Source of the DNA: Thermasporomyces composti
Lineage (GTDB): Bacteria; Actinomycetota; Actinomycetes; Propionibacteriales; Actinopolymorphaceae
Assembly: GCF_003386795.1 (NCBI RefSeq)
Contig: NZ_QTUC01000001.1
Span: 2,232,001-2,296,000, forward strand
DNA length: 64,000 bases
Direction of reading: 5' to 3'
Position numbers and translations under genes: made by a program
Notes under the pieces: generated by a model
What the model was told of the DNA's origin: nothing
Database searches by the model: none
The model's input: only the letters and a program-made list of their open reading frames with translations
In this document: positions 18,418 through 25,554 of the stretch, piece after piece
Position numbering within the stretch: position 1 is the first letter of the stretch
Layout: each line of letters starts with the position of its first letter

Positions 18418-20403
18418 ATGAGATCACCGGTTCCTCGGTCCAGCCGACGCGATCTGCTCCGGCTCGGCGTCACCACTGCCGTCACGGTGGCGGTGGCCGG
18501 GTGTGAGGCGTTGTCCGTCAAGCCGGCCGGGAAGGCTGACAGCGCCTCGCGTTCCGCGGACCGCGCCCTCAAGGAAGCACCGGCGCTCGCCGAACAGGTC
18601 AAGGCCGGCGCGCTTCCGCCACGGGCCGAGCGCCTTCCGGTGAAGCCGATGGTCGTCCGGCCCGCCGAGCGCATGGGCAGGTACGGCGGCACCTGGAAGA
18701 CCATCCTCACCTCTGTCGACGCTGACCCTCACCTGGTCGGGTCGGCAGCGTACGAACCTCTCGTGCGCTGGGACGCCGACCAGCGGAACGTCTCCGCCAA
18801 CGTCGCGGAGTCGTGGGAGGTGTCACGGGACGGCCGGGCCTACACCTTCGCCCTTCGTGAGGGCATGAAGTGGTCGGACGGCGAGCCCTACACCGCCGAC
18901 GACCTGCTCTTCGCCTACGACGACGTGTTGAGCGTCAAGGAGCTCTATCCGGTGATGTCGGCGCAGTTCGCTCCGGACGGCGTTCCGGCGAAGCTGGAGA
19001 AGCTCGACGACCACACCGTGCGCTTCACCTTCTCCGAGCCGCACGGCTTGTTCCTCGAACAGCTCGCCTCCAACGGTGGGTCGCAGCTGCACACCCTGCC
19101 CCGGCACTACCTGGAGCAGTTCCACCTGAAGTACAACCCGGACGCCGACGAGCAGGCCAAGGACGAGGGGTTCGCCGACTGGACGGAGATGTTCCTGGCG
19201 AAGGGTGGCACGGGCCCCGGCGAGCTCTCGGCCTGGCAGAACCCCGACCTGCCGTGCATCTTCCCGTGGCGTGTGGTCGAGCCACTGACCGGCAACCGCC
19301 TGGTCCTTCGGCGCAACCCCTACTACTGGAAGACCGATCCCGAAGGCCGGCAGCTGCCGTACCTCGACGAGGTGGTCTTCGACATCATCACCGATCCCCA
19401 GGTCAGCACCCTCAAGCTCACCGAAGGCGGCTACAGCTTGGTCACCCCGGGCCTCGTGACGTTGCAGAGCAAGCCGGTCTTGGCGGGCGGCCGCGACAAG
19501 GGGCGATACCACTTCATCGACATCGTCTCGTCGCGGATGAACGACGCGACGTTCGTCCTCAACCTCACCCACAAGGACCCCGCCATGCGGGCGGTCCTGC
19601 AGAACAAGGACTTCCGAATCGCCCTCTCCCACGCGTTGAACCGCGAGGAGCTCATCAAGGTGGTCCTCCTCGGCCAGGGTGAGCCGTGGCAGACCTCGCC
19701 GCGTCCGGAGTCCGGGCTCTACCTGGAAGGGCTGGCCACGCAGTACCTCGAGTACGACGTGGCGAAGGCGAACGACCATCTGGACGCGGCCGGCTACCGT
19801 CGGCGGGATCGGGACGGGTTCCGGCTGCGTCCGGACGGTCGGCGGCTGGGCTTCACCCTGGAGGTCCGCACGAACTTCAACCCGCTGTGGGCGGACATCG
19901 CGCAGTTCGCCTCCCAGTACTGGAAGCAGATCGGCGTGGACGTGCGGGTGAAGATCCAGGACCCCACCCTGTTGTTCACCCGGATCGAGGCCAACGAGCA
20001 CGACGCGGTCATGGACGACGGTGACGGAGGCCTGCTGCCCTTGCTGACCCCGCAGTGGTATTTCCCGGTCAGCGTCGACGCGGCCTATGCGGTGGAGTGG
20101 GGGCGGTGGTACCAGACCGGCGGAACGGCGGGCGTCGAGCCCCCTCCGGGCCCGCGCCGGCAGATGGAGCTCTTCGACGAGATCAAGATCACGCCGGACA
20201 AGCGGCGGCGTGAGGAGCTCTTCATGGAGATCCTGCGGATCAGCCAGGAGGAGTTCTACGTCATCGGCACCGCGCTCCCGGCCGCGCGCTACAACGTCGT
20301 CCAAGACGGGCTGCGGAATGTCGTGCGATCCATGGTCGACGACTGCTGTGAGCCCGGACCGTCCGGCCCCGAGCAGTACTTCTGGTCTCCGGAAGACCGC
20401 TAG
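18418..20403 (+). CDS. Family 5 extracellular solute-binding lipoprotein (oligosaccharide or peptide ABC uptake)
   Basis: 661 aa. Starts with SRRDLLRLG, a Tat-like twin-Arg, then a hydrophobic stretch and lipobox VAGC near residue 24, so an exported lipoprotein is expected. Family 5 (SBP_bac_5/DppA-like) blocks are clear: AAYEPLVRWD, VAESWEVSRDGRAYTFALR, GMKWSDGEPYTADDLLFAYD and later FRIALSHALNREELI and YWKQIGVDV. At 660 aa it is longer than DppA and resembles the subgroup that binds oligosaccharides. Start ATG 18418 has GAGGAG 8 nt upstream (GTG 18415 is possible). No permease or ATPase for it lies in the window. Confidence 0.9.
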   Translation: MRSPVPRSSRRDLLRLGVTTAVTVAVAGCEALSVKPAGKADSASRSADRALKEAPALAEQVKAGALPPRAERLPVKPMVVRPAERMGRYGGTWKTILTSVDADPHLVGSAAYEPLVRWDADQRNVSANVAESWEVSRDGRAYTFALREGMKWSDGEPYTADDLLFAYDDVLSVKELYPVMSAQFAPDGVPAKLEKLDDHTVRFTFSEPHGLFLEQLASNGGSQLHTLPRHYLEQFHLKYNPDADEQAKDEGFADWTEMFLAKGGTGPGELSAWQNPDLPCIFPWRVVEPLTGNRLVLRRNPYYWKTDPEGRQLPYLDEVVFDIITDPQVSTLKLTEGGYSLVTPGLVTLQSKPVLAGGRDKGRYHFIDIVSSRMNDATFVLNLTHKDPAMRAVLQNKDFRIALSHALNREELIKVVLLGQGEPWQTSPRPESGLYLEGLATQYLEYDVAKANDHLDAAGYRRRDRDGFRLRPDGRRLGFTLEVRTNFNPLWADIAQFASQYWKQIGVDVRVKIQDPTLLFTRIEANEHDAVMDDGDGGLLPLLTPQWYFPVSVDAAYAVEWGRWYQTGGTAGVEPPPGPRRQMELFDEIKITPDKRRREELFMEILRISQEEFYVIGTALPAARYNVVQDGLRNVVRSMVDDCCEPGPSGPEQYFWSPEDR

Positions 20404-20408
20404 GCGTC

Positions 20409-20436
20409 TCTAGGGGAATCTAGTGCTTTCGCTAGA
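20409..20436 (+). promoter_or_regulatory. 28-bp TCTAG element, upstream copy, with putative promoter P1
   Basis: Structure TCTAG-N5-TCTAG-N8-CTAGA: two direct TCTAG boxes one helical turn apart plus an inverted one. It matches the copy at 20529 in 22 of 28 positions. A -10-like GATACA (20443-20448) follows exactly 7 bp after the element, as in the other copy. It starts 6 bp after the stop codon of the solute-binding protein gene. Confidence 0.65.
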
Positions 20437-20528
20437 CGGCGCGATACACCGTCATCGACTTCCTCGGGCGAGGCGGCGCTTCCGCGAGGGGGTGGTTCAC
20501 TCGCCGACTCGACACGCGACTATCCGCT

Positions 20529-20556
20529 TCTAGCGAAATCTAGGGTTCTCGTTAGA
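20529..20556 (+). promoter_or_regulatory. 28-bp TCTAG element, proximal copy, overlapping the AAA ATPase promoter
   Basis: Structure TCTAG-N5-TCTAG-N8-TTAGA. A -10-like CATACT (20563-20568) begins 7 bp after it, and the GTG start of the ATPase gene follows 8 nt after the -10, which suggests a leaderless transcript. The element covers the place where the -35 should be, so it is either an operator or an activator-dependent promoter element. CTAG is rare in GC-rich genomes, which makes six boxes in 150 bp stand out. Confidence 0.7.
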
Positions 20557-20576
20557 TTCGCCCATACTCTCGCAGC

Positions 20577-21770
20577 GTGGACCCCGTACGAAATCCCTAC
20601 GCCCCCGGGGCCGGCCAGCGTCCTCCCGAGCTCGCCGGCCGCGACCGTGAGGTACGCCAGTTCGAGGTCGTCCTCGAACGCGTCGCAGCTGGGCGTCCCG
20701 AGCGAAGCCTCGTCCTCTCCGGCCTTCGTGGCGTGGGCAAGACCGTTCTGCTCAACGCCATGCGCTCACTCGCGCTCACCCGGGCCTGGGGCACCGGCAA
20801 GGTCGAGGCCCGACCGGACCGACCGATCCGGCTTCCGATCGCGCAGGCCCTCCACGCGGCGAGCCGCGAGCTGGCCCCACGCCACCGAGATCCGGACCGA
20901 GTCGACGAGTTCCTGGGCGTCCTCAAGGCGTTCGCGCTCCAGACGTCGGCCAACGAGCGCAAGGGAGTCCGCTGGCGACCTCCGTACGACGTCCCGGCCG
21001 CGCGCGGCCGGGCCGACTCGGGCGACCTCGAGACCGACCTCATCGAGCTGTTCACCGCCGCGGGAGAGCTCGCGCGTGACCTCGGCGTGGGCATCGCCGT
21101 CTTCATCGACGAGATGCAGGACATCCCGTCCGAGGAGCTGGCCGCGCTGTGTGGCGCCTGTCACGAGATCAGCCAGCTCGGCGTGCCCTTCGTGGTGGTG
21201 GGTGCGGGCCTCCCGCACCTCCCGACCGCCTTGTCGGCGAGCAAGTCGTACGCGGAACGGCTGTTCCGTTACGTCTCCGTCGGGCGTCTGGACCGGGCGG
21301 CGGCCGACCGTGCGCTCACACTCCCCGCGGCCAGCGAGGGGGTGGAGTACGAGCCAGCGGCGCTCGACGCGCTCTACGAGGTCACCGACGGCTACCCCTA
21401 CTTCATCCAAGCCTTCGGCAAGGCGACCTGGGATGTCGCGCCGAGAAGCCCGATCACCGCCGACGACGTCAAGGTCGCCACACCCGAGGCGGAGGCGGAG
21501 CTGGCGGTCGGCTTCTTCGGGTCACGGTACGAACGCGCGACCCCGGCGGAGCGCGACTACATGCGTGCCATGGCGGAGCTGGGGGCCGAGCGCGGGGACG
21601 GTCCCGTCGCCACGGGCGATGTCGCCGCGCTGCTCGGTCGCAAGCCACAGAGCCTGTCACCGGCGCGTGACGCCCTCATCAAGAAAGGGCTCGTGTACGC
21701 CTCCGAGCGCGGCCACGTCGCGTTCACGGTGCCGCACTTCGGCGCGTTCCTCCGGTCGCAGCCCACGTAG
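20577..21770 (+). CDS. AAA+ ATPase (AAA_16/ATPase_2 type) with C-terminal winged-helix-like region
   Basis: 397 aa. Seen: N-terminal PPELAGRDREVRQFE, the usual entry of AAA_16 proteins; Walker A GLRGVGKTVLLN near residue 49; Walker B VFIDEMQD near 178; a sensor-type segment VPFVVVGAGLPHL; and a lid with YPYFIQAFGK. The last 90 residues (VATGDVAALLGRKPQSLS, ARDALIKKGLVY) look like a winged helix. Such proteins occur as orphan ATPases or regulators in actinomycetes and archaea. Its role is unknown. The GTG start lacks a ribosome site and lies 8 nt after a -10-like hexamer, so leaderless translation is likely. The duplicated TCTAG element upstream suggests tight or autogenous control. Confidence 0.8.
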   Translation: MDPVRNPYAPGAGQRPPELAGRDREVRQFEVVLERVAAGRPERSLVLSGLRGVGKTVLLNAMRSLALTRAWGTGKVEARPDRPIRLPIAQALHAASRELAPRHRDPDRVDEFLGVLKAFALQTSANERKGVRWRPPYDVPAARGRADSGDLETDLIELFTAAGELARDLGVGIAVFIDEMQDIPSEELAALCGACHEISQLGVPFVVVGAGLPHLPTALSASKSYAERLFRYVSVGRLDRAAADRALTLPAASEGVEYEPAALDALYEVTDGYPYFIQAFGKATWDVAPRSPITADDVKVATPEAEAELAVGFFGSRYERATPAERDYMRAMAELGAERGDGPVATGDVAALLGRKPQSLSPARDALIKKGLVYASERGHVAFTVPHFGAFLRSQPT

Positions 21771-23005: not shown

Positions 23006-23296
23006 TCACTGAAAGAGCGTGGTGTTGGCCCGCTCGGTCGCGGTGTAGTTCGTCCTGATGTTCTCGACCGCAGCGCCAAGCTGGGCGAGCACATCGTTGA
23101 GCTCACCAATGGCCTTCTCCCACTGGGCCTTGGCCTGCCAGTAAGCCTCCCTGGCCTCACCGCTCCACTCGGCGAGCTTCTGCTCGAGCTCCCTCTCGAG
23201 GTCGTTGGTCTCGTCCTCGACACCGCGGTAGGCGAGGCGCAGGTTCGCCTGAAGCTGGTCGAGCGCCTCAGCATTCCATCTGGTGAAGTCGGTCAT
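23006..23296 (-). CDS. WXG100 protein, ESX substrate (EsxA/EsxB-like)
   Basis: 96 aa, the standard size of ESAT-6/CFP-10 family proteins. Helix-turn-helix hairpin with the WSG turn (Trp 44). A C-terminal YTATE fits the YxxxD/E export signal read by EccC. Start ATG 23296 has GGAGG 10 nt upstream. It is the second gene of a two-gene unit, 48 bp after its WXG100 partner, and presumably forms a heterodimer with it before secretion by the ESX machine encoded next to it. Confidence 0.93.
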
Positions 23297-23344
23297 GGAT
23301 GTGAAACCTCCGTGCGATGGTGGTCGAGTTCAGGGAGGGCCGGA

Positions 23345-23662
23345 TCAGGTGAGGCCGTTGAGCAGCGCGTCGATCTTGTTGACCGCCTCCTGCTGCTGCT
23401 CCTCGGTGGCCTCGTAGCTCATCCGAGCGGCGCCCATCTTTTCCCGCAGGTCGTTGAGGGCGTCACAGACCACCTGGAACTTCTCGTCGAAGGTGTCCAT
23501 GACCCTGCTGAAGGCGTTCGCCGCGTTGCCTTCCCACTGGCCGAGGGCCTCGGACTTGTACTCGCGCAGCTTGCCCTTGATGCCGACGATGACGTCGAAG
23601 GCGTCGCCAACTCGCTGCGCGGCCTCCGCCATCGCGGCTCTGTCTTGCTGGGCTGCTCCCAC
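23345..23662 (-). CDS. WXG100 protein, ESX substrate (partner)
   Basis: 105 aa. Helical hairpin with turn WEG (Trp 43) and a C-terminal YEATE matching YxxxD/E. GTG 23662 is the start: GGAGGT lies 4-5 nt upstream. Both WXG100 proteins here carry the export motif, whereas in classical EsxA/EsxB pairs it is usually on one partner only. First gene of the pair; a promoter is proposed about 160 bp upstream. Confidence 0.93.
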   Translation of the reverse strand: MGAAQQDRAAMAEAAQRVGDAFDVIVGIKGKLREYKSEALGQWEGNAANAFSRVMDTFDEKFQVVCDALNDLREKMGAARMSYEATEEQQQEAVNKIDALLNGLT

Positions 23663-24027
23663 ACCTACCTCCTCGTCTCGACCCGGTTGTCCCGGGCGCT
23701 GCCTGTCGCGGGACCTGCCTCCGCTTCACAACGTCGGGGTGCCGAATCGCTTGTGACCTGAGTGCCCGTCTGCACGACGGTCGGAGGCCCCTCGCTGGTT
23801 GGCACCCAGCGCTGCACCACGCTAACGCGAAACGGGGCGTTCCCGTCAGAGGGATTCACCCCGCCTGTGGATAACTCCCGGTGGGCGTCTCCACACACCG
23901 CGATGTTGATCACGATAGGCCCGCGGGACGGGGCACGCCAGGCGGCGAGTCCGCGCAGACACCTGGGGAACGCGCGACCTGCTGGTGAGCTCCCCACGCG
24001 GCACGCGCCCGTCCCGCTGGGCACGAT
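23663..24027. other. 365-bp intergenic region between WXG100 pair and eccB
   Basis: Holds the presumed promoter of the WXG100 operon and one DnaA-box-like 9-mer (TGTGGATAA, 23866-23874). A 119-codon frame on the minus strand runs through it but has neither a ribosome site nor any recognisable domain, so I do not call it a gene. Confidence 0.5.
23819..23848 (-). promoter_or_regulatory. Putative promoter of the WXG100 operon
   Basis: On the minus strand a -35-like TGACGG (23843-23848) and a -10-like TAGCGT (23819-23824) are separated by 18 bp. This would give a leader of roughly 150 nt before the first WXG100 start. Confidence 0.4.
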
Positions 24028-25554
24028 TCACTGACGAGAGGGTTCGAACGCCGCCGTGCGGTGCGCCGCTTCCGTGGTGAGCGCCGGCCCTTGGGGGATG
24101 AGGCGCAGCATCGACGGCGGCACCAGGAGCGGGTCGACGCCGTTGTAGCCCAGCTTGGCGAGCGTCTGCCGATCGGGCACGGGGTACTTCACGCCGTCTT
24201 CGGTGATGAGGAAGTAGCCCTGCGGGTCGAGGTCGCGCCCGGGCAGGAGGCCCACGATGGTGCCCTTCCCCGGCGGGACGAGGACACGGTCGGCCAGACC
24301 AACCGTCCCGCCACCGGTGTTGGGGTCGTCGGCCGTGTCCGTCGCGGTCTCCGCGGGTGCCGGAAGCCTGCCGCCGGTGAGGACGGTCACACCCTCCTCG
24401 GGGTCCTCGTAGGACAGGCACACCGGCACGCCGTCCGCGCTGCCCAGGTCGACCAGCTCCGGTGGCGTCTCAGGCAGGTCAGGGACGAGCATCGTGGCGG
24501 TCTGCGAGCTCGCCTGGTTGACCGCGCTGATCGGGATCTCGGTGGGCTCGGTCTGCACGCGTCCGCCCTCGCGGGCGGTGCCACTCCCCAAGAGCAGGAG
24601 CGCCTGCACCTCGGAGATCCTCGAGAAGCCGTCCTCCAGCATCACGAAGTAGGCGTCCGGGCTGGGCGTGTGGAAGACCTGGCCGATCGTCGCGGTGCGA
24701 CCCTCGATCTGGAAGGGGCTGGGGTTGCCACGCTGGGGGACCACCGGAGCGGCCAGCGGTTGTCCAGCCTCGATCGTGCCGAGCCACATCTCGCTCACGG
24801 GGACGGCCGACGACGGCGAAAGGCTCAAGCTGCGCAGAGCGTCCGCGTCAACCTCGAGACGCTTGCCCTTCCACACCAGGTGGGTGGTGCCGTCGGGAGC
24901 GCTCACCAAGAGCCCACGGTCCCCGATCGGGTCGGCGTCGAGCTCCTCGTTCGCGGTCCCGATGACGAGGTCGACGCGAAGCCGAGTCTGGTCATCGACC
25001 GTGCGAGCCGTGGAGCACACCGTCCACGGCGCGAAAACCAGGTTCTCCTTGTCGGGAACGGAATTGGGAGCCAGCGGGATCCCGACCCGTGGTCCGCGAG
25101 GGATCCCCTCGAGCGACTTCTTCGACACCCGGACGACCTTCACCGGACCGTCCAGGATGAGCTGCGCCGAGGTGTAGTTGAGCACCTGGACGAGGACCAT
25201 GTCCTTCTCGTCGCGCTCACCCGTGAGGCCAGCTGGCGGCTCCGGCGTCGCGGGCTGGTCGCCGCCGGACGCGAGCTGAGACTTCGGCAGGTAGAGGTAG
25301 GCGGCGTTGGTCTCCTTCTCGACGATGAGCGCGTTCGGCTCGTTCTTCCACCTGGTGGCGTTCGTGTCGGCGAGCCACCCATACAACGCGACCCCGGCAC
25401 AGGCCAGCGCGCCGACCATGGCGCCGGCGAACGTCGCGGTGGAGACTCGGCGCATGGGCTGCTCGAGCGACTCCGGTTCACTGCCGAGCATCGCGGCGAG
25501 AATCCGGCGCAAGAGGTAGCGATACGCCTGCAGTTGGTCGCGTCGGGTTTGCAT
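24028..25554 (-). CDS. eccB: EccB, core membrane component of the ESX secretion system
   Basis: 508 aa. Starts MQTRRDQLQAYRYLLRRI, the invariant EccB N-terminus, followed by one transmembrane helix at about residues 39-60 and a large extracytoplasmic domain made of repeats around a central core. It carries the two Cys residues expected for the family disulfide (WTVCSTART and VPVCLSYEDP). EccB builds the membrane pore complex with EccC, EccD and EccE. Start ATG 25554 is fixed by the conserved N-terminus. Divergent from eccE, with about 200 bp between starts. Confidence 0.95.
   Translation of the reverse strand: MQTRRDQLQAYRYLLRRILAAMLGSEPESLEQPMRRVSTATFAGAMVGALACAGVALYGWLADTNATRWKNEPNALIVEKETNAAYLYLPKSQLASGGDQPATPEPPAGLTGERDEKDMVLVQVLNYTSAQLILDGPVKVVRVSKKSLEGIPRGPRVGIPLAPNSVPDKENLVFAPWTVCSTARTVDDQTRLRVDLVIGTANEELDADPIGDRGLLVSAPDGTTHLVWKGKRLEVDADALRSLSLSPSSAVPVSEMWLGTIEAGQPLAAPVVPQRGNPSPFQIEGRTATIGQVFHTPSPDAYFVMLEDGFSRISEVQALLLLGSGTAREGGRVQTEPTEIPISAVNQASSQTATMLVPDLPETPPELVDLGSADGVPVCLSYEDPEEGVTVLTGGRLPAPAETATDTADDPNTGGGTVGLADRVLVPPGKGTIVGLLPGRDLDPQGYFLITEDGVKYPVPDRQTLAKLGYNGVDPLLVPPSMLRLIPQGPALTTEAAHRTAAFEPSRQ

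Follow-up and report, generated by a model that had tools for sequence, protein, structure and literature searches.

A repeated TCTAG element that precedes the gene of an AAA+ ATPase in Thermasporomyces composti is, on comparative sequence grounds, a genuine and deeply conserved control site. We consider it probable that the ATPase binds this element and regulates its own gene, most likely by repression, with auxiliary copies of the element acting through DNA looping and with a second target between gyrB and gyrA in Nocardioides.

The TCTAG element and its conservation

Direct reading of the window (the whole stretch of 64,000 nucleotides that was analysed) places TCTAGGGGAATCTAGTGCTTTCGCTAGA at 20409–20436 and TCTAGCGAAATCTAGGGTTCTCGTTAGA at 20529–20556. 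As a preliminary description of this DNA had stated, the two 28-bp elements are offset by 120 bp, share 22 of 28 bases and are each followed 7 bp later by a hexamer, the letters there being ATACAC (distal) and ATACTC (proximal). The locus comprises the following features:

20409–20446, plus strand: distal operator (auxiliary), with TCTAG at 20409–20413, TCTAG at 20419–20423 and CTAGA at 20432–20436
20511–20517, plus strand: GACACGC motif, just upstream of the proximal operator and conserved in orthologue promoters
20529–20556, plus strand: proximal operator, with TCTAG at 20529–20533, TCTAG at 20539–20543 and TTAGA at 20552–20556
20565–20570, plus strand: −10 hexamer TACTCT, occupying the place of a fourth box
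20577–21770, plus strand: AAA+ ATPase gene, 397 aa, GTG start, presumably leaderless, with an AAA_16 match
21591–21758, plus strand: C-terminal winged-helix region (residues 339–394) from predicted structure and conservation, the presumed DNA-binding part

Both hexamers had been called −10-like, which holds for the proximal TACTCT, which fits TANNNT, but not for the distal TACACC. With TACTCT at 20565–20570, transcription would start at or beside the GTG at 20577, that is, from a leaderless promoter. Further boxes accompany both copies: the distal 28-mer is flanked by an extra in-phase CTAG (20400–20403), which contains the stop codon of the preceding open reading frame (ORF), and its site includes a degenerate fourth box, CGATA (20442–20446); the proximal 28-mer is preceded, in 10-bp phase, by an ACTAT box (20519–20523).

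The tetranucleotide CTAG, previously noted as rare, is found 23 times in the window, where shuffled sequence would give 64, and 6 of the 23 occurrences fall inside 20400–20543. Mismatch-free TCTAG-N5-TCTAG was found twice in the window and twice in the whole genome (scanned as one contig of 4,372,514 bases, 4.37 Mb), always before the ATPase gene. A sequence profile made from 36 related promoters, the window's own included (R1), recovered the two window sites at E values of 3.7e-12 and 8.5e-9 and, beyond these, nothing in the genome better than E 2.97. A four-box score was highest in the window at the distal site (16), followed by the proximal site (15), and reached at most 12 anywhere outside the locus. 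A literature search, with most subscription journals outside its reach, gave nothing on the TCTAG element among the papers listed. Behind the ATPase gene, positions 23006–25554 of the minus strand hold two short ORFs and one longer ORF; we take the short ones to be WXG100-like and the longer one to resemble EccB, which would suggest a type VII secretion cluster.

Among 136 orthologue loci of actinobacteria, 134 had a start and enough upstream DNA, yielding 118 distinct 120-bp upstream sequences that were scored by matches to the 10 fixed bases of TCTAG-N8-CTAGA. Rather than being absent before the orthologues, the element, earlier proposed to be a dedicated one, reached at least 8 of 10 (a threshold set after seeing the data) in 114 of the 118 promoters, or 113 without a chance match in L105; the control stretch further upstream reached it in 10 of 118, part of these being true distal copies. 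At least 31 of the 118 promoters (22 coded f3 and 9 named) come from the one family that holds Kribbella, as do many of the auxiliary sites described below, so that the rows of both counts are not independent. The inner palindrome starts at −42 to −35 in 100 of 118 promoters and at −64 to −55 in 13, mostly of the Rhodococcus group, in which the whole operator lies about 20 bp further upstream, the palindrome spacer reads GACACGCC or GACACGCG, and GACACGC falls within that spacer. In 117 of 118 promoters a TANNNT ends 5–8 nt ahead of the start, as against 0–2 of 118 at four control positions, in agreement with the leaderless promoter first suggested. The accompanying suggestion of an alternative sigma factor is not favoured, the −10, from which alone it was judged, being an ordinary TANNNT in the same 117. 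GACAC occurs between −95 and −40 in 92 of the 118 promoters and in 2 of 118 control stretches. In Streptomyces GACAC is the WhiA motif (PMC3781837), and the conserved GACACGC is, by its letters, possibly a WhiA-type site.

Of the four promoters that scored below 8, L104, L109 and L116 belong to Intrasporangiaceae and L107 is recorded only as Actinomycetales. These four and L105, together the Intrasporangiaceae-type promoters, keep the box positions with other letters (such as CATAC, TATTG or TATGC) and retain CTAGA; they also retain GACAC (AACAC in L109), and the recognition helix of the ATPase is nearly unchanged in these loci.

When 97 relatives were searched with R1, all 58 that have a close orthologue gave a match at E ≤ 0.05 to the promoter of that gene, some of these promoters belonging to the training set of the profile; of the 39 relatives that lack a close orthologue, one (E 0.037) gave any match at that limit. 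Class-wide, 61 of 246 genomes matched, and 16 had a second match about 1.2–1.4 kb from the first; the gene was not located in this search, and the distance fits a place just behind it. The ATPase gene lies on the gyrA strand, 67–221 kb from gyrA, in 44 of 44 genomes that carry both on one contig (52 of the 58 orthologue genomes were compiled). The gene, first described as an orphan, may be called so for its function but not for its locus, which is conserved. Because the orthologue keeps its place relative to gyrA, a mobile or defence gene is not favoured as its main reading; homologues do occur on plasmids.

Comparison of site classes revealed the complete operator as a palindrome of four boxes and 38 bp, TCTAN-N5-TCTAG-N8-CTAGA-N5-NTAGA. 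Auxiliary sites, defined as those away from the promoter, within the flanks examined and with an inner score of at least 9 (n = 58), have an exact outer 5′ TCTA in 38 cases, an exact outer 3′ TAGA in 33 and both in 25, with TANNNT in the fourth-box place in 1 of 58. At promoter sites (n = 78) the fourth box reads TAGA in none and is replaced by TANNNT in 70. The distal copy of the window shows the auxiliary layout and, by membership in this class without a −10, is probably an auxiliary operator and not the second promoter that had been envisaged there. In relatives, auxiliary copies lie about 100–240 bp upstream, 0.6–1.9 kb upstream, or 16–164 bp behind the gene. A site behind the gene was seen at nine loci. 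The likely ORF that follows, as judged from codon bias and not from annotation, is convergent at five of them and co-directional at two, with none called at the other two, so a promoter role of the site is possible at the two co-directional loci.

Two further observations concern other sites. In L238 and L239 a pair of other genes flanks an auxiliary site that lies about 2 kb upstream of the ATPase gene; the product of one of the pair presumably resembles a RelA/SpoT-type protein. The palindromes GTGTTCTAG..CTAGAACAC (L315–L319), which recur in genomes of the Kribbella family, were rejected as the same operator on account of their longer arms and probably represent the operator of another regulator.

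A site between gyrB and gyrA in Nocardioides

In Nocardioides, R1 sites are also found between gyrB and gyrA, about 80–205 kb from the ATPase gene, and many of them have an extra CTAG just before the palindrome that contains the TAG stop of gyrB. Of the 31 sites classed as gyrA sites, L281, L286 and L288 are from genomes that lack the gene and L256 is from another genus. The ATPase was detected at E ≤ 1e-60 in 132 of 147 Nocardioides genomes. A gyrA palindrome scoring at least 8 of 10 was present in 27 of 30 Nocardioides genomes with the gene (28, and in addition G511, whose gene is full-length, and G496, whose gene is frameshifted) and in 3 of 14 without it (Fisher p = 1.3e-5); G412 and G455 were left out of this count, having no gyrA match at the limit used. 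The exceptions are G391 (score 5), G432 (score 6) and G511, which have the gene and a gyrA site below 8, and G445 (complete, 9/10), G420 (84% complete) and G473 (92%, 360 contigs), which have the site and lack the gene. Dropping G420, G473 and G520, the least complete or most fragmented of the gene-lacking genomes, leaves 1 of 11 (Fisher p = 2.6e-6). Outside this genus, the gyrA region scored below 8 in 14 of 14 gene-bearing genomes of other genera, and inspection by eye of five genomes from the window's family, that of T. composti included, revealed no gyrA palindrome.

Relatedness weakens this test of gene and site. A gyrA tree placed 42 of 46 genomes (G031, G043, G402 and G473 were dropped, as their gyrA start was not recognised), comprising 24 with gene and site, 11 with neither, 5 with the gene only, including G060 and G078 from another genus, and 2 with the site only. 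On this tree the gene changes 9 times and the site 12 times, and well-supported branches leave only 2 independent pairs. The position of the site suggests a link between the ATPase and supercoiling in Nocardioides; in Streptomyces coelicolor, gyrBA transcription is described as supercoiling-sensitive, and earlier work indicated a single gyrBA promoter (PMC5055605).

The ATPase and its wider family

The protein matches Pfam AAA_16 at 70.2 bits (cut-off 32.6, E 4e-19), with other AAA-type models below their cut-offs only. Walker A (GLRGVGKT) and Walker B (FIDEMQD) are intact, and G49, G52, G54, K55, T56, D178 and E179 are invariant in 39 aligned sequences. No confident named family emerged from NCBIfam, PADLOC or PDB sequences: no NCBIfam model scored above its cut-off, TIGR02928 (Orc1/Cdc6) reaching 16.9 bits against a cut-off of 181.3 and only over residues 16–62, around Walker A, and the best PADLOC match was mads_8 (18 bits, E 4e-4, residues 43–222). 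One PHROGs family, of unknown function, matched at E 1e-14. The structure predicted from 39 sequences (mean pLDDT 84, pTM 0.79) consists of an AAA+ core and a C-terminal winged helix, with helices at 346–353 and 357–369 and strands at 373–377 and 380–383; S359, S361, P362, A363, R364 and D365 are invariant in the 39 sequences. We predict an Orc/STAND-type AAA+ ATPase that ends in a winged helix. The modelled winged helix, the lack of good profile matches in genomes that lack the gene and the gyrA copies mostly missing from such genomes all favour the initial proposal that the ATPase itself may be the regulator, and make it the likely binder.

Homologues of about 25–50% identity often carry other repeats directly upstream, with periods of 9–10 and 18–20 bp. 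L125 has TATAC-N5-TATAC-N9-GTATC-N5-GTATC, the same layout in other letters, with a near copy in L126; L118 has three TAGCG at 10 bp, L203 repeats ACTTAGAACT, and L201, L208, L222 and L223 have repeats of 19–20 bp. At p ≤ 0.02, 23 of 75 homologues (5 of 80 loci, L120, L135, L136, L217 and L220, were dropped) have a direct repeat in the region −120..0, 23 have an inverted one and 43 have at least one of the two; the control region −260..−140 of the same homologues gives 6, 9 and 14. The other 32 of the 75 show no significant repeat in −120..0. Repeat lags stand out at 9–10, 18–20 and 29 bp (z of 15 at 10 bp and 20 at 19 bp). Small peaks at 13 and 26 bp are attributed to a 13-bp tandem in L176, which also distorts the by-lag control column. 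A regulator family that recognises its own genes would show such gene-linked variety of repeats. Repeat similarity is no better explained by the winged helix (partial correlation 0.046, a value that 29 of 500 permutations reached) than by the AAA domain (0.122, which none of 500 reached), four more loci (L194, L219, L221 and L222) being left out of this test.

Homologues were also found on 115 plasmid records, among them Sphingobium plasmids, so the family crosses phyla. Of these, 25 were listed, named, where a name is given, 'AAA family ATPase', 'ATP-binding protein' or 'hypothetical protein'; two of the listed records (11.9 and 2.7 Mb) look like chromosomes. Six plasmid contexts were read: in one of them a replication initiation gene lies about 2.6 kb from the homologue, in another an AAA family ATPase gene lies immediately upstream of it, and the remaining contexts differ. 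Upstream repeats are also visible by eye in six plasmid members.

Proposed mechanism and alternatives

We suggest that the C-terminal winged helix of the ATPase recognises a private operator with as many as four TCTA-type boxes, in which an 8-bp spacer separates two inverted halves and each half has two boxes in direct repeat at a distance of 10 bp. As the boxes lie one helical turn apart in inverted pairs, an oligomer could place up to four winged helices on the same face of the DNA. At the presumably leaderless promoter, which has an ordinary −10, the boxes span about −48 to −21, and, with the −10 in the place of the fourth box, binding would most likely block RNA polymerase. The gene would thus be under negative autoregulation, which ATP binding or hydrolysis may modify, although the idea that nucleotide state is the signal is a guess based on the fold. 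Distant copies, of which the distal one is an example, would act as auxiliary operators, probably via looping, and in Nocardioides the same protein would have been given a second target between gyrB and gyrA. Repression with looping is favoured by the cover of the −35 to −10 interval and by the copies that lack a −10.

The sign of control is nevertheless inferred, and activation of the promoter by the ATPase, its operator over −35 recruiting RNA polymerase, is a possibility to which we give appreciably less weight. SARP-type and sigma-adapting activators recruit polymerase from sites over −35, and an activator would also fit here because no conserved −35 is evident in the promoter alignment; a gap of 8 nt separates the last box from the −10 hexamer, a conserved GACACGC lies further upstream, and the Rhodococcus-group operator is shifted upstream with its −10 still near the start. 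However, the inner palindrome is centred near −29, in the promoter spacer, where most bound proteins exclude polymerase, and copies without a −10, also found behind the gene, are more usual for DNA-looping repressors. Control of the ATPase gene by another, unlinked DNA-binding protein that recognises the element is unlikely: the T. composti genome has no further good site, gyrA copies tend to be missing where the ATPase gene is missing, and many homologues carry different repeats of their own. In its favour are the covariation test, which does not single out the winged helix, a recognition helix that hardly changes where the Intrasporangiaceae-type boxes change, and the identity of GACAC with the WhiA motif of Streptomyces (PMC3781837).

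Least probable of these is that the element serves replication or segregation, as an initiator box or centromere for an Orc1/Cdc6-like protein, with its overlap with the promoter being secondary. The fold does match Orc1/Cdc6, sites lie on either side of a gene that is itself 67–221 kb from gyrA, and homologues occur on the 115 plasmid records, where two of the six contexts examined place them near a replication initiation gene or just behind an AAA family ATPase gene; yet the other contexts differ, the fourth-box place holds a −10 at most promoters, and Nocardioides has its second site at gyrA.

A private operator would give a little-named family a testable function, regulation of its own gene, together with a short list of targets, and the gyrB–gyrA site would point to a specific trans-acting factor as a candidate for controlling gyrase in an actinobacterium. 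More tentatively, and with considerable doubt, we envisage a large class of AAA+/winged-helix regulators, each with a private, helically phased operator, of which one actinobacterial member on the gyrA side would be ATP-responsive and oligomeric, loop its own locus and be wired to gyrase in Nocardioides; such wiring, if real, would link cellular ATP to chromosome supercoiling.

Among solved structures, PABY2304 (2qen) and SSO1545 (2fna), two archaeal Walker-type ATPases, come closest in fold, with Z scores of 22.1 and 20.6 over about 317 residues and identities to the ATPase of 14–18%; we know of no operator reported for either. Orc1/Cdc6 proteins (1w5t, 2qby and 2v1u; Z 18.6, 16.7 and 15.3) share the fold and the winged helix, and their genes can adjoin their own binding boxes. 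Unlike Orc1/Cdc6 sites, those described here sit on promoters, and the origin of the host is assumed to be of the DnaA type. A STAND regulator of the MalT type from the maltose system (8bob, the chain of which we take to be MalT) matches at Z 13.7. MalT sites are repeated short boxes; MalT has a DNA-binding domain of another fold and a sensor domain, whereas the ATPase has 397 aa and AAA-type Pfam domains only. In its arrangement of sites, a palindromic operator at the promoter with extra copies 0.1–1.9 kb away, the system resembles lac and gal, which have autoregulated repressors with auxiliary operators, but it differs in having an AAA+ ATPase as its candidate repressor and an operator made of four boxes in 10-bp phase.
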